A stretch of DNA of 62,569 nt. It comes from Thermoguttaceae bacterium. Its GTDB lineage: Bacteria; Planctomycetota; Planctomycetia; Pirellulales; Thermoguttaceae. How positions within the stretch are numbered: position 1 is the first letter of the stretch; each line of letters begins with the position of its first letter. The notes beneath the pieces are model-generated. The model did not search any database, was not told the origin of the DNA, and saw nothing but the letters and a program-made list of their open reading frames with translations. Location: NCBI GenBank assembly GCA_017436025.1, contig JAFSDX010000271.1, positions 1 to 62,569 of the forward strand, written 5' to 3'. The position numbers were made by a program, and so were the translations under genes. Positions 1 through 13,009 of this stretch are shown piece after piece.

Positions 1-1247
1 ACGTAAACGCCTTTACCTTCGACGGTTAAGTAATTCCAGTCGCGCGTTCCGTTCCCGGCGACCGTCTCGATTTCGCGTTCTTGCCGCCAATCGGCGCGGA
101 AGTACATCGAATCTTCCGTCCAAGGCCGCTTCTTGTAATAAACGGCGTACTCGACGTCGACGTCCTGCTCGCCCCAATTAACAAACGAAACGCGCGCCTC
201 TTTTTGGAACGGCATATTCCAATACGCCTTCATCGTTCCGTCTTCGCAAACTTCGGTATACCAAGACTTATACGGGTTGACGCCGACGCCGGAGCCGAAG
301 AATTCGCCGACCGGAACCCAAACGGTTTCCTCGCCGTCGAACGAAATCGCCAAAATAACGCTCCGCGTCGCGGCGACGATATCCTCGGCGTGAAGTTTGA
401 CGTCGATCTCGGTCAAGGCGCCCGGCCCGCGAACGCGGTGCATTCCGAAGAGTCCTTCCATCTCCTCCGACTTCATATAGCGCTTGAAACCGCGCGTCTC
501 GGCGTTCATTTCGAACGTCGTTTTCCCCGGATTCAAGAGCAGGTCGCTCGTCGCGGCGATCTTATCCTTTTGCGCGTCAAGCGCTTGCGTCGAGAACGAC
601 TCGACCGTCGTCCCCGCCGGATACGTCCGATAGTTGATTTGATAATAAAGGTTCCCCTGCTCCTTCATATTGTCGCAGGTGATTTTAACGCTTTTCGCGT
701 AAGGAATCGGGAGGTAGAGGTTGCGCCCGCGAGCCCGTTCCGCCGAAAGAGGCGCGCCGACGAGCGTTTCGCCGCCGATAATTTCGTCGATTTTCCCGAC
801 GACCGCCGGTTCCGCGGCGCCGTCGATATAAACGCGAAGCGTCGTCTTGTAACGCGGCGCGGTGATCCACCAGCGGACGACGGCGCCGGGCCCTTCCGCT
901 TCCATCAAGACGGCTTCTTCGCGGTCGCCGTTCTTTTCAACGCGAATAAACTGCGCCGTGTCGGCGTTTGCGAACCAATTTTCCTCCGGACTCTTCGCGG
1001 CGCGGTCGTAACTGCTCGCTTGTTTGCAAGTATAGTTCGGAAAACGAGTTAACGCGTCGCGGTCGACCATTTCGTCGAGAAGCGTCGCGAGCGAAACGGC
1101 GAAAGCGTTCGTTTTCGCGTCGGCGTTCGTTTCCGCCGCCTTAACAACTAAACTATTGTTAAGTAAGAAGATAAAGAGAGCGAGAGCGCAAACGGAAACG
1201 CAAGCGCGCGCCGCCGTCCGAATCGAACGCGAATGAAGCGTCGTCAT
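1..1247 (-). CDS. GH172 / DUF2961 family secreted protein (3' end outside window)
   Basis: An open frame runs on the minus strand from an ATG at 1247 to the window edge, about 415 codons with no stop, so the C-terminus is missing. Residues 1-38 form a signal peptide with hydrophobic core VCALALFIFLL followed by VKAAET. The rest matches the DUF2961/GH172 family: GAVVRWWITAP near residue 100, LYLPIPYAKSVKITCD, FDGEETVWVPVGEFFGSGVG, GTMKAYWNMPFQKEARV and DWNYLTVEGKGVYV at the window edge. Characterised GH172 enzymes act on fructose dianhydrides or arabinofuranose-containing glycans; the substrate here is unknown. The protein is probably exported to the periplasm or cell surface. No neighbour in the window clarifies its job, although two other secreted glycan-type proteins lie within 10 kb. 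Confidence 0.85.
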   Translation of the reverse strand, partial: MTTLHSRSIRTAARACVSVCALALFIFLLNNSLVVKAAETNADAKTNAFAVSLATLLDEMVDRDALTRFPNYTCKQASSYDRAAKSPEENWFANADTAQFIRVEKNGDREEAVLMEAEGPGAVVRWWITAPRYKTTLRVYIDGAAEPAVVGKIDEIIGGETLVGAPLSAERARGRNLYLPIPYAKSVKITCDNMKEQGNLYYQINYRTYPAGTTVESFSTQALDAQKDKIAATSDLLLNPGKTTFEMNAETRGFKRYMKSEEMEGLFGMHRVRGPGALTEIDVKLHAEDIVAATRSVILAISFDGEETVWVPVGEFFGSGVGVNPYKSWYTEVCEDGTMKAYWNMPFQKEARVSFVNWGEQDVDVEYAVYYKKRPWTEDSMYFRADWRQEREIETVAGNGTRDWNYLTVEGKGVY

Positions 1248-1596
1248 ATCCTCAACCTTTCGTTACTAAATTCAAGTTTTCAAAAACCGTTTGATTTTCC
1301 GCAGTCGACGCCGGCTTCTCGACGCGGCGACCGTCGTTGGCTCCAAACCGGTTTTCGCCAAAATTCGTCCCTTTAATGATACCCGTTCGCGACGCAAAAA
1401 TAAAGGGGGCCTCCGCGTTTTCGCCGAAATTTTACGCAAAAAAAAGCGAAAAAATCACCGCGCTCGCCTTTCGCCGCCTAGACGGGCCGACGTTGCCTCC
1501 GACGACGCGAAAAATCGCCCCAACGCCTCAAGAAGTCGACATAACGTCGTTCAGACGAAATCGTCGTATCGACGCCGCCGACGGGCCAAGAATCAA

Positions 1597-1637
1597 AAAA
1601 CCGCTTAAACGTCTTTCGTTAACGTTTAAGCGTTTTT
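1597..1637. terminator. Bidirectional intrinsic terminator after pheA
   Basis: A 10-bp perfect stem, CGCTTAAACG (1602-1611) with CGTTTAAGCG (1623-1632), has a 10-nt loop. It is flanked by A6 (1595-1600) and T5 (1633-1637), so it can terminate in both directions. It lies about 50 bp downstream of the pheA stop codon. The remainder of the 1248-1680 gap shows no gene. Confidence 0.75.
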
Positions 1638-1680
1638 GGCCTCCAACCGAGCGCTTAACTAAGCGTCGCGATCGCAACCG

Positions 1681-2823
1681 TTAGAGCTGTTCGCGGTAAG
1701 CGCCGAGGAACTCGAAGCCGCCTTCGCTTTCGAGTTGCGCCAACATTTTCAACGTCGGTTCCGAACGGAGCGTCCCTTCGACGTCGAAGTAAAAGCGGAA
1801 CTCGAAGTCTTTGCCGAGAATCGGACGGCTCTCGATTTTGCAGACGTTCAGCCCCAGCGACGCAAAACGCGAAATCAGGTTGTAAAGCGCGCCGGGACGG
1901 TGAGATAGCGTCGTCGTGAACGTGATCTTATCGCCGTCGGGATAGATTTCGAGATTCTTCGAAATGCAGATGAAGCGCGTGTAGTTGTGGTCGCTGTTTT
2001 GAATGCGTTCGCTCAACGACGAGAGCCCGTAAATTTCGGCGCAGGAACCGCTTGCGATCGCCGCGATATCGTTGCGCTCCGAGTTCGCGACAATTCGCGC
2101 CGCGACGGCGGTGTTCTCGCAGACGGTCGCTTTGATTTCCGGATGTTTTTTCAAGAATTCGCCGCATTGCAAGAGCGCTTGTTCGTGCGACACGATTTCG
2201 CGAATATCGCTCAATTTGACGCCCGATTTCGCGAGGAGGTTGTGCTCGACCTTCAGCTTTAAACACCGAACAATATGGAAGTTATATTTGCGCGTCAGGT
2301 CGTAAACGGCGTTGACCGAACCGGCGGAGCTGTTTTCGATCGGCAGAATCCCATAACGGCACATTCCAGAGTCGACCGCTTGACAAACGCCTTCGAAGTT
2401 CTTGAAATAGAAGATTTTCGGAATCGAGAACAACTTGTCGCAAGCCTGTTGCGAGTACGCGCCCTCGACGCCTTGGCAAGCGACGGTCGCCTTATGCGGG
2501 AAGAAACCGGGCGTTTCTTCGAGCGCTTTTCGAACCGAATCGACGAACGGCGACGGAATGTCGATTTTTTCCCGTTGGTAATCGCGACTCAAGTCCAAAA
2601 GCACGTTATAAAACGACTTAACATATTCTTCGAGTTCCTCGCCAACCGCGTCCGCAGCGTGGTACACGACGTCGCGTTCACGCTCTTGCGACAACACCTT
2701 GACGCCGTGTTCCTTCTTGTAACGGGCGACCTCCGCCGCGGCGTCCATCCGTTCGCGGAAAAGTTTCACAATCTGTTCGTCGATCGCGTCGATGCGGTTT
2801 CTTTGTTCCTCGAGATTCGTCAT
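1681..2823 (-). CDS. pheA: Bifunctional chorismate mutase / prephenate dehydratase (P-protein)
   Basis: This enzyme converts chorismate to prephenate and then to phenylpyruvate in phenylalanine synthesis. Of its 380 residues, an AroQ-type chorismate mutase domain covers about 1-85 (RNRIDAIDEQIVKLFRERM). A prephenate dehydratase domain covers about 110-285, with VEGAYSQQA, ILPIENSSAGSV and the catalytic-Thr motif NYTRF. A C-terminal ACT domain follows (SHRPGALYNLI, KIESRP), the usual site of Phe feedback. The frame is open further upstream, but the ATG at 2823 is chosen because it has a GAAGGA ribosome-binding site about 9 bases upstream and begins exactly at the mutase domain. It lies 136 bp after aroF on the same strand, probably one operon under the attenuator at 4001-4356. 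Confidence 0.95.
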   Translation of the reverse strand: MTNLEEQRNRIDAIDEQIVKLFRERMDAAAEVARYKKEHGVKVLSQERERDVVYHAADAVGEELEEYVKSFYNVLLDLSRDYQREKIDIPSPFVDSVRKALEETPGFFPHKATVACQGVEGAYSQQACDKLFSIPKIFYFKNFEGVCQAVDSGMCRYGILPIENSSAGSVNAVYDLTRKYNFHIVRCLKLKVEHNLLAKSGVKLSDIREIVSHEQALLQCGEFLKKHPEIKATVCENTAVAARIVANSERNDIAAIASGSCAEIYGLSSLSERIQNSDHNYTRFICISKNLEIYPDGDKITFTTTLSHRPGALYNLISRFASLGLNVCKIESRPILGKDFEFRFYFDVEGTLRSEPTLKMLAQLESEGGFEFLGAYREQL

Positions 2824-2959
2824 TTCCTTAATTCCTTCTATTAACGTCGGTTGCGACGCGTTCTCTACGTCGGAGTAAAAACGCGCCGACCGTCTTTGAT
2901 TCTTTTGATAATCGCGCCGTTTTTCAAGCAATTCAAACGGCGCATATTTTATTCTTTCC

Positions 2960-3970
2960 TCAACCGCGATAAACGAACGGGCGAATCGCTTCGACGTCTT
3001 TCATCATCGTCGCAAAGGCGTTCGGCGTAAGGGATTGCGCGCCGTCGCAAAGCGCTTTCGGCGGATTGTTGTGAACTTCGACGATGAGGCCGTCGGCGCC
3101 GACGGCGGTCGCGGCGAGCGAAGTCGGGTGAACGAGTTTCGCGTCCCCGGTGGCGTGGCTCGGGTCGACGACGATCGGCAGGTGCGTCAAGCGGCGCAAC
3201 ACCGGAATCGCGGCCAAGTCGAGCGTGTTGCGAGTGTACGTCTCGAAGGTGCGAATCCCGCGTTCGCAGAGGATGACGTCCTCGTTTCCGCCGGCCATAA
3301 TGTACTCGGCGCTCATCAGCAACTCTTGGAGCGTGCTGGACATACCGCGTTTGAGCAAGACCGGTTTGCGCATTTTGCCGACCTGTTTGAGCAACTCGAA
3401 ATTCTGCATATTGCGAGCGCCGATTTGAATAATGTCAACGTTTTCGAAAAGCGGCAGTTGCGACGCGTCCATCGCTTCGGTGATGATCGGTAAACCCGTA
3501 ACTTCCTTAGCTTTAACGAGGAGGCGCAACCCCTCGGCGCCGAGTCCCTGGAAGGCGTAGGGCGAGGTGCGCGGTTTGAAAGCGCCGCCGCGAAGAATCG
3601 TCGCGCCCGCTTCTTTTACCGCCTTCGCAATCTCGATAATCTGCTCTTCCGACTCGATCGAACACGGCCCCGCCATCGTTTGAAAATGCCCGCCGCCAAT
3701 TTTGACGCCGTTCGCAAGTTCAACAACGGTATCCTCTTCGTGAAAACGACGGTTCGCCTGCTTGAACGGCTCCTGAACGCGCTGCACCGATTCGACGATT
3801 TCAAGCGCCTTCAACATATCGACGTCGACGCTCTTCGTGTCGCCGACCAGCCCGACGACCGTATGCGCGTCGCCGACGCTGAGGTGCGACTCGAGCCCCA
3901 TTTCTTTGAGTTGCTCGGTTAAATTCGCGATCTGGTCTTCGCGAGCGTCTTTTTTCAGCAAAATAATCAT
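2960..3970 (-). CDS. aroF: 3-deoxy-7-phosphoheptulonate (DAHP) synthase, type I-beta
   Basis: The enzyme condenses phosphoenolpyruvate and erythrose 4-phosphate, the first step of the shikimate pathway. At 336 aa it has the length and layout of the I-beta class with an N-terminal ferredoxin-like regulatory domain (about residues 1-75: MIILLKKDAREDQI, HTVVGLVGD). The TIM-barrel follows with MAGPCSIESEEQI, LRGGAFKPRTSPYAFQG, IIQIGARNMQNF, PVLLKRGMSST and PIVVDPSHATGD. The ATG at 3970 has an AAGGA site about 8 bases upstream. It is the first structural gene after a leader peptide and intrinsic terminator, and is followed by pheA, so expression is probably controlled by attenuation in response to Phe and Tyr supply as well as by the regulatory domain. 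Confidence 0.96.
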   Translation of the reverse strand: MIILLKKDAREDQIANLTEQLKEMGLESHLSVGDAHTVVGLVGDTKSVDVDMLKALEIVESVQRVQEPFKQANRRFHEEDTVVELANGVKIGGGHFQTMAGPCSIESEEQIIEIAKAVKEAGATILRGGAFKPRTSPYAFQGLGAEGLRLLVKAKEVTGLPIITEAMDASQLPLFENVDIIQIGARNMQNFELLKQVGKMRKPVLLKRGMSSTLQELLMSAEYIMAGGNEDVILCERGIRTFETYTRNTLDLAAIPVLRRLTHLPIVVDPSHATGDAKLVHPTSLAATAVGADGLIVEVHNNPPKALCDGAQSLTPNAFATMMKDVEAIRPFVYRG

Positions 3971-4000
3971 CGCTACATCCTTCCCAGGGGCGCTTTGCTC

Positions 4001-4032
4001 AAAAAAAAACCCTGCAACGCGTCGTCGCAGGG
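4001..4032 (-). terminator. Attenuator terminator upstream of aroF
   Basis: Read on the minus strand, CCCTGC (4032-4027), an 11-nt loop, GCAGGG (4015-4010) and then T9 (4009-4001) form a classic intrinsic terminator, only 31 bp before the aroF start. It sits inside the transcription unit, between the leader peptide stop (4068) and aroF. The 5' arm CCTGCGACGAC (4031-4021) can instead pair with leader bases 4097-4085 (GTTGCCGCACAGG): ten pairs, one mismatch and a CA bulge by eye. That pairing would be the antiterminator. Confidence 0.82.
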
Positions 4033-4067
4033 CCTTCGTTACTTCGGAATATCGTCAAAACCAACGT

Positions 4068-4181
4068 TCAACGACGGTTCCCAACCTGTGCGGCAACGCG
4101 AGCCCCAACTAAGCCCGTAAAGAGGAAGGCGTAGTTAAAGCCGTAGGATTTCGCGTTGTAATAATAGGTAAAGGAAGCCAT
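4068..4181 (-). CDS. Aromatic-rich leader peptide of the aroF-pheA attenuator
   Basis: A 37-codon frame (ATG 4181, TGA 4070-4068) starts with MASFTYYYNAKSYGF and continues with NYAFLF. Nine of its first 21 residues are aromatic: Phe 4, 15, 19 and 21, and Tyr 6-8, 13 and 17. There is no Trp. It is followed 35 bp later by an intrinsic terminator and then aroF. This is the layout of ribosome-mediated attenuation: stalling at Tyr/Phe codons (4172-4120) would leave bases 4097-4085 free to pair with the 5' arm of the terminator and allow read-through. No strong ribosome-binding site is visible upstream of the ATG, which is the weakest point. The peptide is expected to be regulatory only. Confidence 0.78.
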   Translation of the reverse strand: MASFTYYYNAKSYGFNYAFLFTGLVGARVAAQVGNRR

Positions 4182-4224
4182 TGAAAAATCGAGGTTTAAT
4201 ATGCTCTTTAACAGGTTGAATTCG

Positions 4225-4260
4225 CGCGCGCCAATTACGTTTGCAACAAATTGGCGCGCG
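4225..4260. promoter_or_regulatory. 12-bp perfect inverted repeat in the aroF leader transcript
   Basis: CGCGCGCCAATT (4225-4236) and AATTGGCGCGCG (4249-4260) are perfect complements separated by 12 bp. The element lies between the promoter (4329-4356) and the leader peptide, inside the predicted 5' untranslated RNA. It may be a stable RNA hairpin that paces RNA polymerase, or a repressor operator. It lacks a T-run, so it is not a simple terminator. Confidence 0.5.
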
Positions 4261-4328
4261 TCGAAATCTCAACGCAAACTGACAAGCAATTTTTATTTCT
4301 GCTCGCCAACTTGCGCTCGACATTTATT

Positions 4329-4356
4329 AATATATGACGCTTAAAAAAACTGTCAA
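4329..4356 (-). promoter_or_regulatory. Sigma-70 type promoter for the leader-aroF-pheA unit
   Basis: On the minus strand, TTGACA (4356-4351), 16 bp, then TATATT (4334-4329). This predicts a start near 4322 and a leader RNA of about 140 nt before the leader peptide. The rest of the 4182-4579 gap shows no further gene. Confidence 0.72.
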
Positions 4357-4579
4357 GGGGCTTTTTTCAAAAATTTTTTTGTTTATAACTAAAGAGGCCG
4401 AGCGCAACCTTGCGCCGGAACAAACGCCGCTTTTTTCTCGCTCGCCGACGTTTTTTCGATCGCCGCGAACTCCGCCTTTGAAAAGCGCAAATCCACAACA
4501 ATATTCATTAAATCAAAAGCGTCCGCGCGCGACGTGTCTGCGACGCCCTCGCCTTCCTAACTTTAAGGAGTACTAACCA

Positions 4580-6883
4580 ATGCTATTTCAACACTTACCG
4601 CCAAGACGTCGCCGTTGGAAACGCGCCGCGTCGTTCCTTTCGTTCGGCGCCGCGTCGCTCGCCTGCCTCGCCGGTTCCCCCGTCGCGACTTTTTCTCTCG
4701 CTTCGGCGCAAGAATCGGTCGCAAGTTCCGAAACGTCGGACTTTGCCCCCAACCTAATCACCGACCGCGCTCTCGAACGCACGACGTACCAACAAGCCGG
4801 CGGTTACGACCCGCGATTCGACCTAAAAACCGACGCCGTGATGGTTTACGGCGTTTCCGACGAAGCGATCGCGACACTCGAAAAGTGGCGCGCCGAAAGC
4901 GGTTCCAAAGTCGCCGTGATGACCGGCGTCGCTTGGGGAAGCTACAACGATTACCTCGACGGAAAGTACGACGGCGCAACGCATTGGGACGACGCGCAAG
5001 TCCGAGCCGACGGCGAGCGCATTATGCACGACCCGGCGACGCCCTACCTCGCGCCGAGTATCGCGTTCTGCGATTACCTCGAAAGCCGCCTGAAAAAAGT
5101 CGTCGACGCCGGGGTCGAAACGCTCTTCCTCGAAGAACCGGAACTCTGGGCGTTCGCTGGATTTAGCGACACGTTCAAACGCGAATGGCAAATGTATTAC
5201 AACGAGTCGTGGATTCGTCCCGATTCGTCGTGCGACGCCCAGTACCGCTCGGCGAAGTTGATGCAGTACCTTTACCGCCGCCTGCTCGATCGCGTCTGCG
5301 CGTCGCTAAAAGAATACTCGCTAAGAACTTACAACCGACCGCTGAAAGTTTACGTCGCGACGCATAGCCTGCTGAGTTACTCGCAAATCCGGATGGTCAG
5401 CCCGGAATCGGCCCTCCTCGACCTGCCGGGAATCGACGGAATTATCGCGCAAGTTTGGACCGGAACCTCCCGTCATTCCAACATTTACAACGGCGTTCAA
5501 GCGGAGCGCACCTTCGAGTCGGCGTTCCTCGAATACAACGTAACGCAAGAGATGGTTCGCGGAACCGGCAAGCGCGTTTATTACCTGAACGACCCGGTCG
5601 AAGACAATCCGCGTTACGATTGGAACGACTATAAAACGAATTATCTCAGTACTTTAGTCGCGTCGCTAATGCAATCGGAAACGCACTATTACGAAGTCGC
5701 GCCTTGGCCGAGTCGGGTTTTCCTCGGTTCTTTCCCCGCCGGCTCTCCCGACGCGACGACGATTCCCAAAGATTACGCGTCGACGTTAACCCTTACGTTT
5801 CAACAGCTTCGCGATATGAAGCAACCGAACGCGGAATACGACGGCGCGACCGAAGGCGTCGGCGTTCTCTTGGCCGACTCCGCGATGTTCCAGCGCGCCG
5901 AGCCGACCGTTCGCGAGTGCGCCGCGCCCGACGCTTCCGATCCGACGCGTCCTAACACCTTGGAAATTCAAACTTTCGGCGATTTCTTCGGTCTCGCGAC
6001 GCCGCTGATCAAACGCGGAATCCCGGTCGGCGTCCCGGTTCTCGACCACGCGCTCCGCTACCCGGGCTATCTCGACAAATATAAGGTGTTAGCGCTGAGT
6101 TACGAATACCAAAAGCCGTCAAGCCCGGGCCTGCACGCCGTTCTCGCCGATTGGGTAAATCGAGGCGGCGTATTGATTTACGTCGGCGCGGAAACGGACG
6201 TCTATCACGCGGCGAAAGACTGGTGGAACAGCGGTTCGCTTTCTTACGCGACTCCCGGCGAACACCTCTTCGAGTCGCTCGGTTTGAACAAGCGTCCGGA
6301 AAGCGGCAAGTACCGATTTGGCAAGGGTTGGATTTACGTCGACCGCGTTCGTCCGGCGCATTACAACCGTTCGCAAGACAACGCCGACGCTTACCGAAGT
6401 CTTGTCGCGGAAGCGGTTGCGGCGACCGGAGGAAAATACGTCGAACGCAACTATTTCCTTAAACGCCGCGGCCCTTACGTTTTGGCGGCGACGTTGACCG
6501 AATCGCTGTCCGACGAACCGCTAAAACTCGCGGGTCGCTTGGTCAACCTCTTCGACCCAAAACTGCAACCGCTTGACGGCGTTGAAGTTGCGCCGGGAGA
6601 ACGCGCTTGGCTTCTCGACCTCGACAAAGTAACCGCGCCGACGCCCGCCGTCCTTGCGTCAAGTTGTCGCGTCGAATCGATAAAAAACGAAAACGGCGTT
6701 CTAACGTTAGAAACAACCGCGACTTCCGGCGTCGACGCGATTTCGCTCTTGAAGTTGGACGCGAAACCGACGAGCGTTTCGGTCGACGGAACGGCGCTCG
6801 AAAATTGGCGTTGGGACGCCGAGTCGCAAACGCTCTTCTTCGCCTTCCCGACGACCGGCAAAGCGACGATTGAAATTCTCTAA
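4580..6883 (+). CDS. Secreted GH42-like TIM-barrel hydrolase candidate
   Basis: A 767-aa protein with an arginine-rich n-region and a signal peptide ending near LASAQES (about residue 45). The first half has TIM-barrel features seen in clan-A glycosidases (MVYGVSDEAIATLEKWRAE, then TLFLEEPELWAFAGF with candidate acidic residues). Around residues 480-570 a glutamine-amidotransferase-like Rossmann segment occurs (HAVLADWVNRGGVLIYVGAE), followed by a beta-rich C-terminus. This order resembles GH42 and related beta-galactosidase-like families, but no family signature is firm enough to name a substrate. The ATG is preceded by AAGGAG at 9 bases. It stands alone, divergent from the aroF leader. It may break down host or dietary glycans outside the cytoplasm. 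Confidence 0.6.
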   Translation: MLFQHLPPRRRRWKRAASFLSFGAASLACLAGSPVATFSLASAQESVASSETSDFAPNLITDRALERTTYQQAGGYDPRFDLKTDAVMVYGVSDEAIATLEKWRAESGSKVAVMTGVAWGSYNDYLDGKYDGATHWDDAQVRADGERIMHDPATPYLAPSIAFCDYLESRLKKVVDAGVETLFLEEPELWAFAGFSDTFKREWQMYYNESWIRPDSSCDAQYRSAKLMQYLYRRLLDRVCASLKEYSLRTYNRPLKVYVATHSLLSYSQIRMVSPESALLDLPGIDGIIAQVWTGTSRHSNIYNGVQAERTFESAFLEYNVTQEMVRGTGKRVYYLNDPVEDNPRYDWNDYKTNYLSTLVASLMQSETHYYEVAPWPSRVFLGSFPAGSPDATTIPKDYASTLTLTFQQLRDMKQPNAEYDGATEGVGVLLADSAMFQRAEPTVRECAAPDASDPTRPNTLEIQTFGDFFGLATPLIKRGIPVGVPVLDHALRYPGYLDKYKVLALSYEYQKPSSPGLHAVLADWVNRGGVLIYVGAETDVYHAAKDWWNSGSLSYATPGEHLFESLGLNKRPESGKYRFGKGWIYVDRVRPAHYNRSQDNADAYRSLVAEAVAATGGKYVERNYFLKRRGPYVLAATLTESLSDEPLKLAGRLVNLFDPKLQPLDGVEVAPGERAWLLDLDKVTAPTPAVLASSCRVESIKNENGVLTLETTATSGVDAISLLKLDAKPTSVSVDGTALENWRWDAESQTLFFAFPTTGKATIEIL

Positions 6884-7019
6884 ACGTTGATCTCAACTAA
6901 TCTTACGCGTTCTTCGCTCGTTTTCGGCGAAGCGAAGAACGCTCGCCGCGTCAAACGTATAATTCGTTTTTCGCATTTTCAGACTTTTGGGGCGACGCCT
7001 CGTTTTTTCCAGGATTCCC

Positions 7020-7048
7020 TTGACATTTATCCGATTCAACTATATAAT
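7020..7048 (+). promoter_or_regulatory. Consensus sigma-70 promoter of the orphan membrane gene
   Basis: TTGACA (7020-7025), exactly 17 bp, TATAAT (7043-7048): a perfect match to both hexamers and the spacing. Transcription would begin near 7055, which excludes start codons upstream of it and supports the ATG at 7110. Confidence 0.85.
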
Positions 7049-7109
7049 TTTAATAAATTTGCCAATTATTCCCGTTTCTTCCTTTTTATCTGTTACGGAA
7101 AGGCTTGCG

Positions 7110-7715
7110 ATGTGCTACGTTACAGTACAAACTTGTATTATAATCGCCATCATATCTCTTCTTATGCTTATCCTTAGGTTAATTTCCTGTAAGTTAATAT
7201 CTAGCCTTTCTAGGTTTCATAATAATCTTACCCCAGACAACGGCGCGTCCCTCCATATGCCGAACATTCCCAACGTAAACGTCGAGACGTCCCGGACGTT
7301 AGTTCAAAAGTCGGCGCCCAACCCGCCCGAGTCGAGCCCTACCTCGTCCCCAACGTCTCCGTTTATCAATATATTTATTGGCGGTAACGTAAACGAACAT
7401 ACCGAACAAAAATACATTCTCAATCTGCAAATCGTTTTCAAGGGTTTTTTAATCTGTGTGTGCGTTGGCGGCGTCTTTATGCTTGGCTCGCTTGGATACA
7501 ACTTCTGGCTTTTAAAAAATAATAAAGCGCCTACTTTTCCTACGGTTTGGTTAGCTCAATTTATCGCTAAACACATACCGGAACTTCAACCTACGCAAGA
7601 AGGTCTAGAAATTAACCAGGAAGAAATCATCAAAAAACTCATAGACATAGAATCGACCCAAAAAAAGCCGTCCGATGAAGAATCGCTCAAAGACGTGTTT
7701 GACTCCGCCATATAA
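7110..7715 (+). CDS. Orphan two-helix membrane protein of unknown function
   Basis: A 201-aa protein not recognised as any family. The ATG at 7110 is chosen because a GGAAAGG site lies about 7 bases upstream and the consensus promoter at 7020-7048 lies inside the longer open frame. Residues about 7-30 form a hydrophobic helix (TCIIIAIISLLMLILRLI). A Pro/Ser-rich linker follows (NPPESSPTSSPTSP), then INIFIGGNVNEHTEQ, a second long hydrophobic helix (GFLICVCVGGVFMLGSLGY) and a charged, mostly acidic C-terminal tail. Codon use is visibly more AT-rich (TTA, ATA, AAT) than the flanking genes, hinting at recent acquisition. It stands as a single gene between secreted glycan-type proteins. A small membrane effector or phage-derived gene is possible, but no function can be assigned. 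Confidence 0.7.
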   Translation: MCYVTVQTCIIIAIISLLMLILRLISCKLISSLSRFHNNLTPDNGASLHMPNIPNVNVETSRTLVQKSAPNPPESSPTSSPTSPFINIFIGGNVNEHTEQKYILNLQIVFKGFLICVCVGGVFMLGSLGYNFWLLKNNKAPTFPTVWLAQFIAKHIPELQPTQEGLEINQEEIIKKLIDIESTQKKPSDEESLKDVFDSAI

Positions 7716-7827
7716 CCCAAAAACTAAGTCTTTTTTACCAAAGATGTTACCGATCGCGTTAAGTTTTCAGACGTTTCGACGCGACTTTTGGTCGTAGGAC
7801 TTGCGTTTCGCCGTCTCCGACATAACG

Positions 7828-7846
7828 TCGCCCTTCGGGGCGAAAA
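7828..7846. terminator. Possible terminator hairpin between convergent genes
   Basis: TCGCCC, loop TTCG, GGGCGA followed by AAAATT lies in the 7716-7920 gap, between the plus-strand orphan gene and the minus-strand DUF4091 gene. The T-run is poor on both strands, so the call is tentative. Confidence 0.4.
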
Positions 7847-7920
7847 TTGCGTCGTTTAGCGTTGCGTTTGTTAAAATTGCGGCGCCATCTACACGATGTC
7901 GCCGCTCCCACCTTCTTTCC

Positions 7921-10893
7921 TTACTCCTTAAACGACGCGGTTTCCGAAAGGAACGCGCCGATTTCTCGCCGCATACGTTCCCATTCCTCCGACGAAAAAT
8001 CCGGGTAATCTTGCGTTCCGGCGTCTTCCGCGTAACGAAACGTCGAGCGCGCCTCCAACGACAAACGCTTGCGCAACGCCTGCGCGACGTCCCAGCGCGG
8101 CCGCCCGGTTGCGTTACAAAGCGCCGTCAAGTACTCGACGTCCTGCTGTCCGCGTCGATATGCCTTGAGTCGCAACGACGCGACGACTTTTCCGCCGCCC
8201 TCTTCCGTCGCCGGATAAAACAACGACAACTCGTCGCCGTTCTTCCAAGATTCGTCGTTGCCGATCGTTTGCCAAGGCACGATTCCGTCCGCCCCGAGCG
8301 ACCAAGCGTCGAGCGACCAAGCGACCGGTTGCCAACCGTTTAGCTCCGGAGCGGCGGTCGTTCCATAAGCGTAAACGAGTTCGCCAAACCGATCGCGACG
8401 CTCCAAAACGCGGCGATTGTAACGCCTAAAAACATCCCCGGCGACAACGTTGACGTCGAGTAACCCGTCAAGCGAATCGCGACTCCACTGCGGTCGCGAA
8501 ATATCGGCGCGGAAAAGAATCGGACGCGACGCGGCGCCGCTCTCGCCTTCCTTCTCCGCCAATTTATTACCCTTCGTCGCAAAACCGGCGTCCGTCAAGG
8601 CGGAATCGAGTTGTTTCGCGAAGAAGCGCAACGCCGTAAAGTCTTGAAAACTCGCGGGTTCATCGAGCAACCAAGGCGAACTGGCGCGCGACCAACCGTT
8701 GCGTTTGTAATCCATCTTGTTGTTCAGATAGAAAAGAAAGCGCGAATCGTTCCACCCCGATTCGGCAAAATGTTGCGCGGCGTCCTTCAAAGCGCCGTGA
8801 AGCGACTTCTTGTAATCGTCCGAAAAAGCCGCGTCGACCGGACGAACGGTTTCGTCGTATTCCTCGAAAATATTCGCCGGAAAGTTCTCAAAAAACGGGA
8901 GATAGAACGCCTCAATCGGCGTTGCGCCTCGCGGCGAATCGGCGAACGCGCTCCCGTCGAACAACGAATCAAAGCGACGATCCCAATCGCGCCAATCAAA
9001 GGAACGCGTCGCGGCGTCGTATTTCGGCGCCAACCCGTCCCCGACCGTCCCGCGATGCGAATAAGGAACGCGGTTGATATACGTCCGATGCAATTGCGCC
9101 AACTTGTAATACTCGAGTTCGTTTGCCGGAAGCGAATAACAGTTCATCTCCGGAAGGAAACTTAACTCGTTGGGAATGTTAAAGTTCCAAACGTCCAAAT
9201 TAATTTTTAAGTCGAGCGTTTCGCCGTCCGACGTCAAGCGAAGCGTTCCGCTCCACTCTCCGGCGGGCGCGTCTTGCGGAACATAAAGTTCGCAGTAAAA
9301 CGCGTCGCAACCGCCGTTTACGTTCATTTCCGACGTCGCGAGCGGAATTGCGGGATCGCCGATTTTACCGCGCGCCGTTTCGACCCGCGCCAAACGATAA
9401 AAAGTCGTTCGCGGCGTCGATTTCGCGGCGTTTTTCCCCTTACCGTCCTTAACATAAATTCTTTCTTTACCGACATTTAAGTTGCTATTCCAACGTATTG
9501 CGGCGCGAACTTTGCGGGCGTCGCCGTCGAACGCAATTTGAAAACCGACGAACTCGCCGCGCGCCGCCGCCAAATCGATTCGACGTTCGCGCGCGTTCCA
9601 AATCGCGTTCGACGCCTTGTAATTTTCCGGACGCCGCGGAATCAATTCGCCGGTCTCGGTCGCCTTATCAAACTCGTTCAATACGGCCACTTTAGAGCCG
9701 GCCAACATCGGAAGTTGCGCGTTTAAATCCGAAGTTCTTTTAACTTTCGACGCCGTTTTTCCCTCCGCCGTTTCGCTTTTTTTAACGGCGACTAACTCGT
9801 TCCAAAAGCTCGGTTTATCGTCGGAAACGTCGAAGCGCAACGACGCCGGCGCGCTCCGTTCGCCCAATTCGTCGACGGCGACCAATTCCCATTTTTTCGG
9901 TTTCCCCGGTTTCAATCCTAAATTCGACAATCGCGCGACATAGCGTTCTTGCGACGTCAAATAACCGTTTATTTTCGGCGCCGGAATTAACGATTGCGGA
10001 ACGTCGACGCCGTCGATTCGCGCCTGAAATCCGATAAGACGACGCGACGTCGTTTTCGGAACCGTCCAAGAAATCTCGACTTCACCCCAAGGCAAACCGT
10101 CGGTTCGAGCGGCAAGCCCGGTTGGCGCGGCGACCTTTTCTCGCTTATCTTTTGCGCTAACCTCTTCCTCCACAACGACTTCCAAATAAGGCGCCGACGC
10201 GGCATTTTGGTCGCGCGAATAAAAAAATCGGTTTGGAAAGAGCCGAATTTCCACCTCCTCGCCGTCGGCTCCGCGCCGAATCAACTCGGTTCCGACGTCG
10301 TCGAAAAAGACAAATCCGGTCGAAATACCGGCGGCGCGAGCGGCGACAAGACGCGGATCAATCGGAATCGTTTGCCAACCGTCAAGCGGTTCGGACGCTT
10401 CGCCGCTCGCCCAAAACGAACCGCCTTCGCCAAACGTAACCGACGTTATATCAGAATATACGTCTGCATCTGTCGCGTCCGACCAAGGAACGTTCGGATT
10501 CGCTCGCCAACGGAAAGAAGACGCTTCCGAAACTTTTGCGTAACTCGTTCCGTCGCCCTCGCTCCAAGGGACGACGATCGAACCGACCGTTACTTGATGT
10601 AAACGTTCTTCCGAAGCCAACTTGACCCCGATTTTCGCCTTCTTAATTTTCCGTCCGCGCAACTTAGCGACGTCAAAATCAAGCAAGCTAAACTCTTGAT
10701 ATCCCTTCACTTTCAATCGCGGAGAAGCGCCGTTGTTCCCTTCCTCTTCGCCGGACGCCGACGAAACATAGAGATCGCGAATCGCGGGAAAACGAAGGGT
10801 CTCCGCTTCAACGCGCCGAACCGCCGCCCACGTTGCCAATACCGCCGTCGCCATCAATGCGACATTCCGAAACCTTAAAATGCGCCGACTCAT
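7921..10893 (-). CDS. Secreted DUF4091 (GH123-like) protein with DNRLRE- and FnIII-like domains
   Basis: A 990-aa protein. The start at 10893 gives a signal peptide (RNVALMATAVLATWAAVRRVEAE); the frame is open for 39 codons more, but that extension shows no signal character. Domains by eye: an N-terminal beta-sandwich resembling DNRLRE/CBM modules (residues about 35-240, LRFPAIRDLYVSSASGEEE and DFDVAKLRGRKIKKAKIGV), a fibronectin III-like module (about 255-360, VEISWTVPKTTSRRLIGFQA), then a large catalytic region of the DUF4091 type. That region contains SPWLLDEPASFQDF and WQPVAWSLDAWSLGADGIV. DUF4091 is related to GH123 beta-N-acetylgalactosaminidases, so a secreted glycosidase role is likely, but the substrate is unproven. 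It is transcribed alone. Confidence 0.75.
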   Translation of the reverse strand: MSRRILRFRNVALMATAVLATWAAVRRVEAETLRFPAIRDLYVSSASGEEEGNNGASPRLKVKGYQEFSLLDFDVAKLRGRKIKKAKIGVKLASEERLHQVTVGSIVVPWSEGDGTSYAKVSEASSFRWRANPNVPWSDATDADVYSDITSVTFGEGGSFWASGEASEPLDGWQTIPIDPRLVAARAAGISTGFVFFDDVGTELIRRGADGEEVEIRLFPNRFFYSRDQNAASAPYLEVVVEEEVSAKDKREKVAAPTGLAARTDGLPWGEVEISWTVPKTTSRRLIGFQARIDGVDVPQSLIPAPKINGYLTSQERYVARLSNLGLKPGKPKKWELVAVDELGERSAPASLRFDVSDDKPSFWNELVAVKKSETAEGKTASKVKRTSDLNAQLPMLAGSKVAVLNEFDKATETGELIPRRPENYKASNAIWNARERRIDLAAARGEFVGFQIAFDGDARKVRAAIRWNSNLNVGKERIYVKDGKGKNAAKSTPRTTFYRLARVETARGKIGDPAIPLATSEMNVNGGCDAFYCELYVPQDAPAGEWSGTLRLTSDGETLDLKINLDVWNFNIPNELSFLPEMNCYSLPANELEYYKLAQLHRTYINRVPYSHRGTVGDGLAPKYDAATRSFDWRDWDRRFDSLFDGSAFADSPRGATPIEAFYLPFFENFPANIFEEYDETVRPVDAAFSDDYKKSLHGALKDAAQHFAESGWNDSRFLFYLNNKMDYKRNGWSRASSPWLLDEPASFQDFTALRFFAKQLDSALTDAGFATKGNKLAEKEGESGAASRPILFRADISRPQWSRDSLDGLLDVNVVAGDVFRRYNRRVLERRDRFGELVYAYGTTAAPELNGWQPVAWSLDAWSLGADGIVPWQTIGNDESWKNGDELSLFYPATEEGGGKVVASLRLKAYRRGQQDVEYLTALCNATGRPRWDVAQALRKRLSLEARSTFRYAEDAGTQDYPDFSSEEWERMRREIGAFLSETASFKE

Positions 10894-11626
10894 AATCTCT
10901 TCATAACCCCATTTATTACTTAGGATAACACTCCAAAAAACTTTTATTACCACACAAAGTAGCGCTTTATCGAGCGACCTTCTCATTATTCGCGATAATA
11001 ACGGACGCACCCGAATTTCAAATCAATTTTAAGAAACAAATATACGTCTGCAATATATTCGTTATCTCTTGTCAAGATAGCGTTTACCCACCAACCGTTT
11101 AGCGAAATCGCTTTGTCTCGATATGTTAGCGAAACCGCCTAACCGTTGACATTAGACGAGTTAAACCGTCCGCTCACATAACCGTTCAACTTTTCCAACT
11201 GAAACTACGGTCGCCAAACGCCGCCCGCGTTTGACTTTTAGCGCTTTACCTAAGATATTCTAATTACTTACGCGTCCTTTGCGACGTCTCGACGCTCCAA
11301 AACGCGCCGTTTTTTAAACTTAATCGTCGCCCCCAAAAGCGCTTAGAACGCGTTTACGCAATTTTCCAAATCGATCTTGCGCCGCCTTCCGGTAAAAACG
11401 GTATAACGCGCGCCTAAAACTCGCCTCCCCCAAAAATCGAGACTCTTTCACCGAAACCGCGCCGCGACAAACTTAACGTTATCTTTTTGACGTTTTAAAG
11501 TATGTAACACTCGTAGCTTTGCCTAATCATTAATGTCAACGCGCTATTTTTGCTTTGACGACGGCGACAACGCGACGCTCTTTCAAACGCCGGTTGCGCC
11601 GCCGTTAACATACTATATTACGCAAG
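10894..11626. other. Intergenic stretch with no recognisable gene
   Basis: About 730 bp between the DUF4091 gene start and the aldehyde dehydrogenase stop. It is more AT-rich than its surroundings. Small open frames here have no ribosome-binding site or protein-like composition. I see no RNA gene, repeat or convincing promoter. Confidence 0.5.
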
Positions 11627-13009
11627 TTAACGCAAAAACATCCGAAGAAGCGACGCGTATAGTTTACTCTTATACGGTCGATAACGCATCGGCAAATCGA
11701 GCCACGTCGCCTTATCGACGACCGATTTCAGGTGCGAAAACGCGTCGAACCCCGTCTTGCCGTGGTACGCGCCCATCCCGCTTTCGCCGACGCCGCCAAA
11801 CCCCATCTCCGTCGTCGCCAAATGAATCACCACGTCGTTCACGCAACCGCCGCCATACACAAGTTCCGTCGTTACGCGTTTTACACGTTTCCTGTCGGAC
11901 GAAAAAAGGTAAAGCGCAAGCGGTTTGGCCTTCTTTTTAAGTTCGTCGACGACGGAATCAAAATCGTCGAACGTCAAAATCGGCATAATCGGGCCGAAAA
12001 TCTCCTCGCCCATTACCGCGTCCGTCTCCGTTACGCCGTCCATCACCGTCGGCGCAATCCGTTGCGACATCGCGTCCCAATCGCCGCCCAACACGACTTT
12101 ATCGCGGTCGATCAAAGCGCAAAGACGGTCGAAATGCTTCGCGTTGACAATCTTCCCGTAATCTTTATTTTTCAACGGGTTATCGCCATATTGTCGCCGA
12201 ACCTCCTTAACGACCTCCGCGACAAAAGCGTCCTTAATCGAGCGTTCGCAAAGGATATAGTCCGGCGCGACGCACGTTTGTCCGCAATTCAAGTATTTAC
12301 CAAACACAATCCTTTTGGCGGCAACCTTTAGGTTCGCCGTCGAATCGACGATGCAAGGACTTTTCCCGCCAAGTTCCAAAACAACCGGCGTCAACCGTTC
12401 GGCGGCGCGACGTAACACTTCTCGCCCTACCGTTTGTCCTCCGGTGAAGAAAACGAAGTCGAACTCCAAGTCGAGCAACGCGGCGTTTTCCGCTCGACCG
12501 CCCGTTACCGCGGCGACGTATTCCGGCGCAAACGTCGCCGCGATTAACTTTGCGACAACGGCGCTCGTCGCGGGCGAATATGCGCTCGGCTTGACCATTG
12601 CGACGTTTCCGGCGGCGATCGCGTCGATCAACGGGCCTAAAGTCAATAAAAACGGATAGTTCCAAGGGCTCATAATCAAAACGTTTCCGCGCGGAACCGC
12701 CTGTCGATAACTGCGCGACGGAAACTGCGCAAGCGGCGTCCAAACGCGACGCGGCGCCGACCATTTTTTCACGTTCCGAATCATATGCGAAATTTCGGAA
12801 AGCGCGAGACCGACTTCGCACATATACGCTTCATAAGCGCTTTTGCCAAGGTCGTTTAGGAGCGCGTCGCAAATTTCCGCTTCAAAATTTTGAATCGCGC
12901 GACGCAATTTTTTCAGTTGTTCAATTCGAAAATCAACGGAAATCGTCGCGCCGCCGCGATAAAATTCCCGCTGCTTTTCAAACGTTTTTTTCATTTCTTG
13001 CGCGGTCAT
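11627..13009 (-). CDS. NAD(P)-dependent aldehyde dehydrogenase, class 3-like
   Basis: 460 aa, close to the usual class 3 length. Motifs include SPWNYPFLLTLGPLIDAIAA with the substrate/cofactor Asn, KPSAYSPATS, VFFTGGQTVGREV, the catalytic-Glu motif VVLELGGKSPCIVD and the catalytic Cys in NCGQTCVAPDY. The C-terminal half has MGEEIFGPIMPILTF and the GGVGESGMGAYHGKTGFDAFSH box. It oxidises aldehydes to acids (ALDH3-type enzymes favour medium- and long-chain or aromatic aldehydes). The ATG has AAGGAG about 11 bases upstream. It begins 18 bp after the stop of the iron alcohol dehydrogenase, so the two form an alcohol-to-aldehyde-to-acid (or reverse) operon. Confidence 0.93.
   Translation of the reverse strand: MTAQEMKKTFEKQREFYRGGATISVDFRIEQLKKLRRAIQNFEAEICDALLNDLGKSAYEAYMCEVGLALSEISHMIRNVKKWSAPRRVWTPLAQFPSRSYRQAVPRGNVLIMSPWNYPFLLTLGPLIDAIAAGNVAMVKPSAYSPATSAVVAKLIAATFAPEYVAAVTGGRAENAALLDLEFDFVFFTGGQTVGREVLRRAAERLTPVVLELGGKSPCIVDSTANLKVAAKRIVFGKYLNCGQTCVAPDYILCERSIKDAFVAEVVKEVRRQYGDNPLKNKDYGKIVNAKHFDRLCALIDRDKVVLGGDWDAMSQRIAPTVMDGVTETDAVMGEEIFGPIMPILTFDDFDSVVDELKKKAKPLALYLFSSDRKRVKRVTTELVYGGGCVNDVVIHLATTEMGFGGVGESGMGAYHGKTGFDAFSHLKSVVDKATWLDLPMRYRPYKSKLYASLLRMFLR

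Follow-up and report, generated by a model that had tools for sequence, protein, structure and literature searches.

The window, the whole 62,569-nucleotide stretch of contig JAFSDX010000271.1 (Thermoguttaceae bacterium) analyzed here, carries on its minus strand the genes aroF and pheA, preceded by a leader region. In the order of transcription, the features are as follows.

4351-4356, minus strand: -35 hexamer TTGACA, assigned from the sequence
4329-4334, minus strand: -10 hexamer TATATT, separated from the -35 hexamer by a 16-nt spacer
4182-4324, minus strand: structured 5' UTR of ~140 nt, with stem sequences that vary between species
4068-4181, minus strand: leader ORF of 37 codons, nine of them Phe or Tyr within the first 21
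4089-4099, minus strand: putative antiterminator strand GCGTTGCCGCA, within the leader ORF; partner at 4029-4019
4019-4029, minus strand: putative antiterminator partner TGCGACGACGC, comprising most of the terminator 5' arm and the loop
4001-4032, minus strand: intrinsic terminator, with stem 4032-4024/4018-4010 followed by T9 at 4009-4001
3978-3984, minus strand: Shine-Dalgarno-like GGAAGGA of aroF, read from the sequence
2960-3970, minus strand: aroF, DAHP synthase of the FXD type (PRK08673, E 3e-149; PF18152 and PF00793)
1681-2823, minus strand: pheA, chorismate mutase-prephenate dehydratase, with the start revised to ATG 2823

A first-pass annotation of this DNA had described a TTGACA-16-TATATT promoter, a 37-codon frame in which nine of the first 21 codons are Phe or Tyr and none is Trp, and a stem-loop with T9 ahead of aroF and pheA, and had read them as an attenuator in a planctomycete-like genome. 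All of these elements were found where it had placed them. The promoter (4356-4329, minus strand) has 11 of 12 consensus matches. The leader ORF (4181-4068) encodes the peptide MASFTYYYNAKSYGFNYAFLFTGLVGARVAAQVGNRR, with Phe or Tyr at codons 4, 6, 7, 8, 13, 15, 17, 19, and 21 and no Trp; no Shine-Dalgarno sequence precedes its ATG in the window. The terminator stem is GC-rich and consists of nine pairs, one of them G-U. Domain searches agreed with the identities given to both genes, the PheA protein containing chorismate mutase and prephenate dehydratase domains. The most likely start codon of pheA is ATG 2823 rather than TTG 2931, because stop codons occur in the N-terminal extension from TTG 2931 in sister species. 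The genome was aptly called planctomycete-like: a contig from its genus that carries aroF (L083) is publicly recorded as uncultured Planctomycetaceae.

A segment of the leader ORF can pair with the terminator 5' arm. The first-pass annotation had drawn this helix over ten pairs between 4097-4085 and 4031-4021, with the last Phe codon ending about 23 nt before its segment. That register does give ten pairs, but the same helix is better drawn between 4099-4089 and 4029-4019, where 10 of 11 positions pair and one is a C-A mismatch; 19 nt then separate the last Phe codon from 4099. In the window, the leader stop codon lies 18 nt beyond the antiterminator strand, so that a ribosome halted at the stop codon would mask the strand incompletely.

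The genus of the window, g1, was represented by 20 species, 11 of which have the same aroF (74-98% identity to that of the window). A Phe/Tyr-rich leader and a terminator precede aroF in all 11 orthologues. An alignment of the five closest species gave 96% identity for leader codons 1-24, compared with 44% upstream of the promoter, 49% in the 5' UTR, and 93% in aroF. Given the contrast with its flanks, the leader frame is under selection. The -35 hexamer TTGACA is the same in the window locus (L001) and in L003-L006, and the other g1 and g34 loci have TTGACA or TTGACG. In the six remoter g1 species, the peptides are unlike that of the window (MDFGFLFTRYYYYYYYYRF..., MKTAFLFTRYYYYCW..., MNYSFRFTRNYYYFYRYW...), with the aromatic bias kept. 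In dinucleotide shuffles of g1 upstream regions, 6/14 Phe/Tyr was reached in 1.8% and 7/14 in 0%, as opposed to the observed 10 of 11 loci; the aromatic richness of the g1 leaders exceeds chance.

All 11 g1 terminators contain CCCTGCGAC, and TGCGAC in the terminator arm is invariant. The complementary antiterminator motif, TTGYCGC (TTGTCGT in L012), is likewise found at all 11 loci, but some species would translate it as I-V-A or V-A-A and others as Y-C-R or C-C-R. The retention of the motif while the reading frame shifts argues for selection on RNA pairing and not on the peptide. Alignment of relatives had been proposed earlier as a check on the leader frame, its aromatic codons, and the stem; these are conserved in 11/11 g1 loci and, within the family, in two genera besides g1, and the compensatory changes sought in related genomes are present in the terminator stems. 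As a separate observation, six g1 species (G002, G005, G009, G014, G017, and G018) have no close relative of the window aroF; they have another DAHP synthase or the gene is missing from the assembly, and most of them have trpE.

Covariation was scored over 15 further family loci. The terminator showed seven pairs with two-sided changes, a value that none of 500 shuffles reached, and the antiterminator showed three, which 7 of 500 shuffles equaled or exceeded. The antiterminator was 88.5% paired, as opposed to 23-49% in slid controls. Covariation is strong in the terminator stems and moderate in the antiterminator pairing. The antiterminator duplex was better than shuffles (p<=0.05) at 17 of 19 other family loci, 31 of 39 loci in other planctomycetes, and 31 of 52 named, mostly clostridial, loci. 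In the window taken alone it was no better than shuffles (p 0.55), and pair counts within g1 were not significant. Swapping own terminator arms for foreign ones gave a moderate result overall and an unfavorable one for the window locus (p 0.84). At the level of the family and the phylum, the sequences hold a predicted antiterminator that is mutually exclusive with the terminator, acts on its 5' arm, and lies downstream of the control codons.

The leader RNA of the window folds far more stably than shuffles (z -6.6), with much of the stability coming from nonconserved stems of the 5' UTR, and no consensus 5'-UTR fold was found among the g1a species. When folding was repeated with a ribosome masking successive positions, the E. 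coli pheL leader gave a terminator probability of ~0.04 at Phe codons 6-11 and >0.9 later. As in pheL, the terminator was suppressed with the ribosome on the aromatic codons and restored later in L209, which switched clearly, and partly in the g34 locus L039; a partial switch was also seen in L238. In the window, equilibrium favors the terminator wherever the ribosome is placed (P at least 0.84), and control there would therefore have to be cotranscriptional. Folding models make such a switch possible: before the terminator 3' arm is made, the leader RNA of L003, L004, and L006 is predicted to pair with the 5' arm when the ribosome is on the Phe/Tyr codons, and the 5' arm is largely freed once the ribosome reaches the antiterminator.

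The sequence has what is expected of an attenuator: a short leader ORF in which codons for the end products abound, and a terminator before the first structural gene. From the leader ORF, its aromatic bias, the terminator, the alternative complementarity, and their conservation and covariation, all read in the sequences themselves, we infer leader translation, stalling, read-through, and a Phe/Tyr signal. RNA polymerase would start near 4322, and a ribosome would translate the leader during transcription. With ample Phe and Tyr, the ribosome would pass the aromatic codons and cover 4099-4089, the terminator would form at 4032-4010, and transcription would end in the T-run. If either Phe or Tyr ran short, the ribosome would stall within codons 4-21 and leave 4099-4089 free to capture the emerging terminator 5' arm; the terminator would be preempted, and aroF-pheA would be transcribed. 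It is very likely that the locus is such a ribosome-mediated transcription attenuator, which senses charged Phe- and Tyr-tRNA and sets aroF-pheA expression. Conservation and covariation in relatives thus support the earlier attenuation reading.

The terminator could instead be real and respond to something else, such as a riboswitch, a protein, or a T-box-like tRNA sensor in the 5' UTR, the aromatic ORF being incidental. The ~140-nt, strongly structured UTR and the leader ATG without a Shine-Dalgarno sequence would suit such a sensor, but few parts of the locus are less conserved than the UTR (49%), whereas the ORF codons are nearly fixed. Moreover, aromatic leader codons are found in more than one phylum, and the differences between those of aroF and those of pheA make sense. 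Rfam covariance models, applied to window positions 1-12000 at E up to 1, gave no match, T-box included; in 18 related loci there was no T-box, and the only match was an unrelated FMN riboswitch. A known RNA family or T-box as the controlling element was rejected for want of a match in these regions, and control by another sensor seems improbable. Even less credible is a leader ORF that encodes a functional small, aromatic-rich peptide, with a terminator that merely separates it from aroF. The N-terminal peptide is indeed highly conserved in five sister species, yet between genera the peptides are wholly unlike, and what they retain is their wealth of aromatic residues and a place ahead of a terminator. 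The C-terminal part, moreover, varies in frame and in length although the antiterminator nucleotides within it are kept. As for the UTR itself, two strong hairpins lie at 4324-4190 of the minus strand, with stems that differ species by species.

We evaluated how common such leaders are with one rule applied to 200 aroF upstream regions from Planctomycetota and (mostly gut) Clostridia, which were picked by AroF similarity and not at random. An aromatic leader was found in 135 of the 200, and a terminator was found for 130 of these 135. Under the same rule, the controls gave 0/30 for trpE, 0/16 for kdsA, and 34/589 for random stretches of clostridial loci. All four g27 and all five g34 aroF loci have both leader and terminator. 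The native planctomycete leader type in the family reads FYF.PPGRG.GGG, and other forms occur in families f2, f6, f37, and f52. Trp is present in 55 of 60 native planctomycete aroF leaders as opposed to 9 of 54 named, mostly clostridial, leaders.

Six g1 species have a standalone pheA (L237-L242) with its own leader, which contains five or six Phe codons and at most one Tyr or Trp (MTTNVFSFTEFFWFSFTMTP, MNRLFSFIPFFDFIFTGGSR, and others) and is followed by a terminator. Thus, Phe leaders stand before pheA and Phe/Tyr leaders before aroF, and codon content follows the gene product, as attenuation predicts. By eye, the L237 antiterminator has up to 16 pairs, wobbles included. General attenuation of aromatic genes was rejected, since the tyrA and pheS upstream regions in the genus have no comparable conserved leader; Trp attenuation of trpE in the genus was likewise rejected, no Trp-rich leader having been found. 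Upstream of trpE in other genomes of the family (L277-L279) there are weak short ORFs with Trp runs (MDKPWWW, SRWWVV, CWCWW), which are possible Trp leaders.

The anthranilate synthase N-terminal domain (PF04715) was not found in G000, G001, G003, G006, G007, and G008, the sister group of the window, and was present in all six remoter aroF-bearing g1 species (G010-G013, G016, and G019). This distribution suggests that the sister subgroup consists of Trp auxotrophs. One idea considered was that Trp codons in a leader simply mark Trp prototrophs. Both trpE and Trp codons are absent from g1a, yet g34 has trpE and no Trp codons, and the link is therefore only suggestive.

In an AroF tree of 137 proteins, made by a quick method with SH-aLRT support only and with several forks open, the native planctomycete enzymes form one clade, and those of the three gut planctomycete genera g1, g27, and g34 fall among the Bacillota. 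For the g34 AroF, the well-supported sisters are those of Lachnospiraceae L088 and Ruminococcaceae L091. These three have in common TAAGG[AT]TAATTTGTG, a closely similar terminator, and the gene order aroF-tyrA; one variant of the terminator region is GGTTAA/TTAACC in L088 and GGATAA/TTATCC in L091 and g34. The attenuator and gene order common to g34 and Clostridia indicate that the switch apparently travels with the operon. The aroF lineage of the window looks horizontally acquired. Its aroF would have come from gut Clostridia or been traded with them, most likely together with the attenuator, the nesting pointing to transfer from Clostridia to the planctomycete. Cotransfer of attenuator and aroF is plausible for g1 and g27, with less certainty than for g34.

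On origin, the leader-aroF architecture might have arisen separately in each lineage rather than moved with the gene. In favor of this, the leaders are short and diverse, and a separate leader type (FYF.PPGRG.GGG in the family) belongs to the Planctomycetota whose AroF is native. That would leave the common core, similar terminator, sister AroF, and aroF-tyrA order of g34 and L091/L088 unexplained, and we consider convergence rather unlikely, with most room for it in g1 and g27, where the attenuators are less alike. Movement with the operon is part of a broader reading that we hold to be fairly probable: leader attenuation of FXD-type DAHP synthase genes is widespread and largely unreported in Planctomycetota and gut Clostridia, moves with the operon, and has its codons retuned to the pathway (Phe/Tyr/Trp for native planctomycete aroF, mostly Phe/Tyr for the clostridial type, and Phe alone for standalone pheA).

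The mechanism and its targets have precedents; the distribution is unexpectedly wide and mobile. Like the window locus, E. coli pheL-pheA has a Phe-rich leader and antiterminator/terminator alternatives ahead of a chorismate mutase-prephenate dehydratase gene. The E. coli system has Phe only and a single gene, whereas the window has Phe and Tyr and an operon that begins with aroF, with a longer leader, a weaker antiterminator, and no Shine-Dalgarno sequence. In Corynebacterium glutamicum, aroR-aroF has a Phe-Tyr-Phe leader at which ribosome stalling leads to read-through (Neshat et al. 2014, as summarized by PMC11802643 and PMC4046766), with a response to Phe and not to Tyr (reviewed in PMC11802643). 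It too places an aromatic leader peptide ahead of an aroF DAHP synthase operon, although it belongs to another phylum, has only three aromatic residues reported, and is likened here by description and not by homology. The uORFC-13-1 motif, known only from Acholeplasma and environmental sequences (PMC8632094), resembles the window in having a predicted uORF with Phe codon(s) and a terminator before aroF; it differs in its requirement of at least one Phe only and in that narrow occurrence, and the likeness is again one of description. The His leader of hisS/hisZ in Firmicutes (PMC2965389) is a further case of leader-peptide attenuation outside Proteobacteria and Actinobacteria, but it uses His and precedes aminoacyl-tRNA synthetase genes in Bacilli. 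That 2010 paper knew of no leader-peptide system outside the two phyla besides its own hisS case, and Planctomycetes and aroF go unmentioned in its text. In the open-access literature, we found no paper that describes attenuation by aromatic leaders for Planctomycetota or for these Clostridia.

Leader-peptide attenuation is usually viewed as an enteric and actinobacterial strategy. Its presence before aroF in a deep phylum and in gut Clostridia would, if true, widen the known range, with at least one clear case, g34, of an attenuator moving between phyla with its operon. It would also mean that transcription and translation in Planctomycetota are coupled closely enough for attenuation. The cell plan of this phylum has long been debated. 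Cultured Planctomycetota with the native leader would make attenuation directly testable.

Two further features of the window may be noted. Positions 4580-11010 hold two large adjacent ORFs of 767 and 1029 aa without a Pfam match. Between aroF and pheA (2959-2824, minus strand) lies a hairpin, GCGCCGTTTGAATTG...AAAAACGGCGC, whose pairing is kept despite base changes in sister species (GCGTCGTTTGAATTG...AAAAACGACGC).
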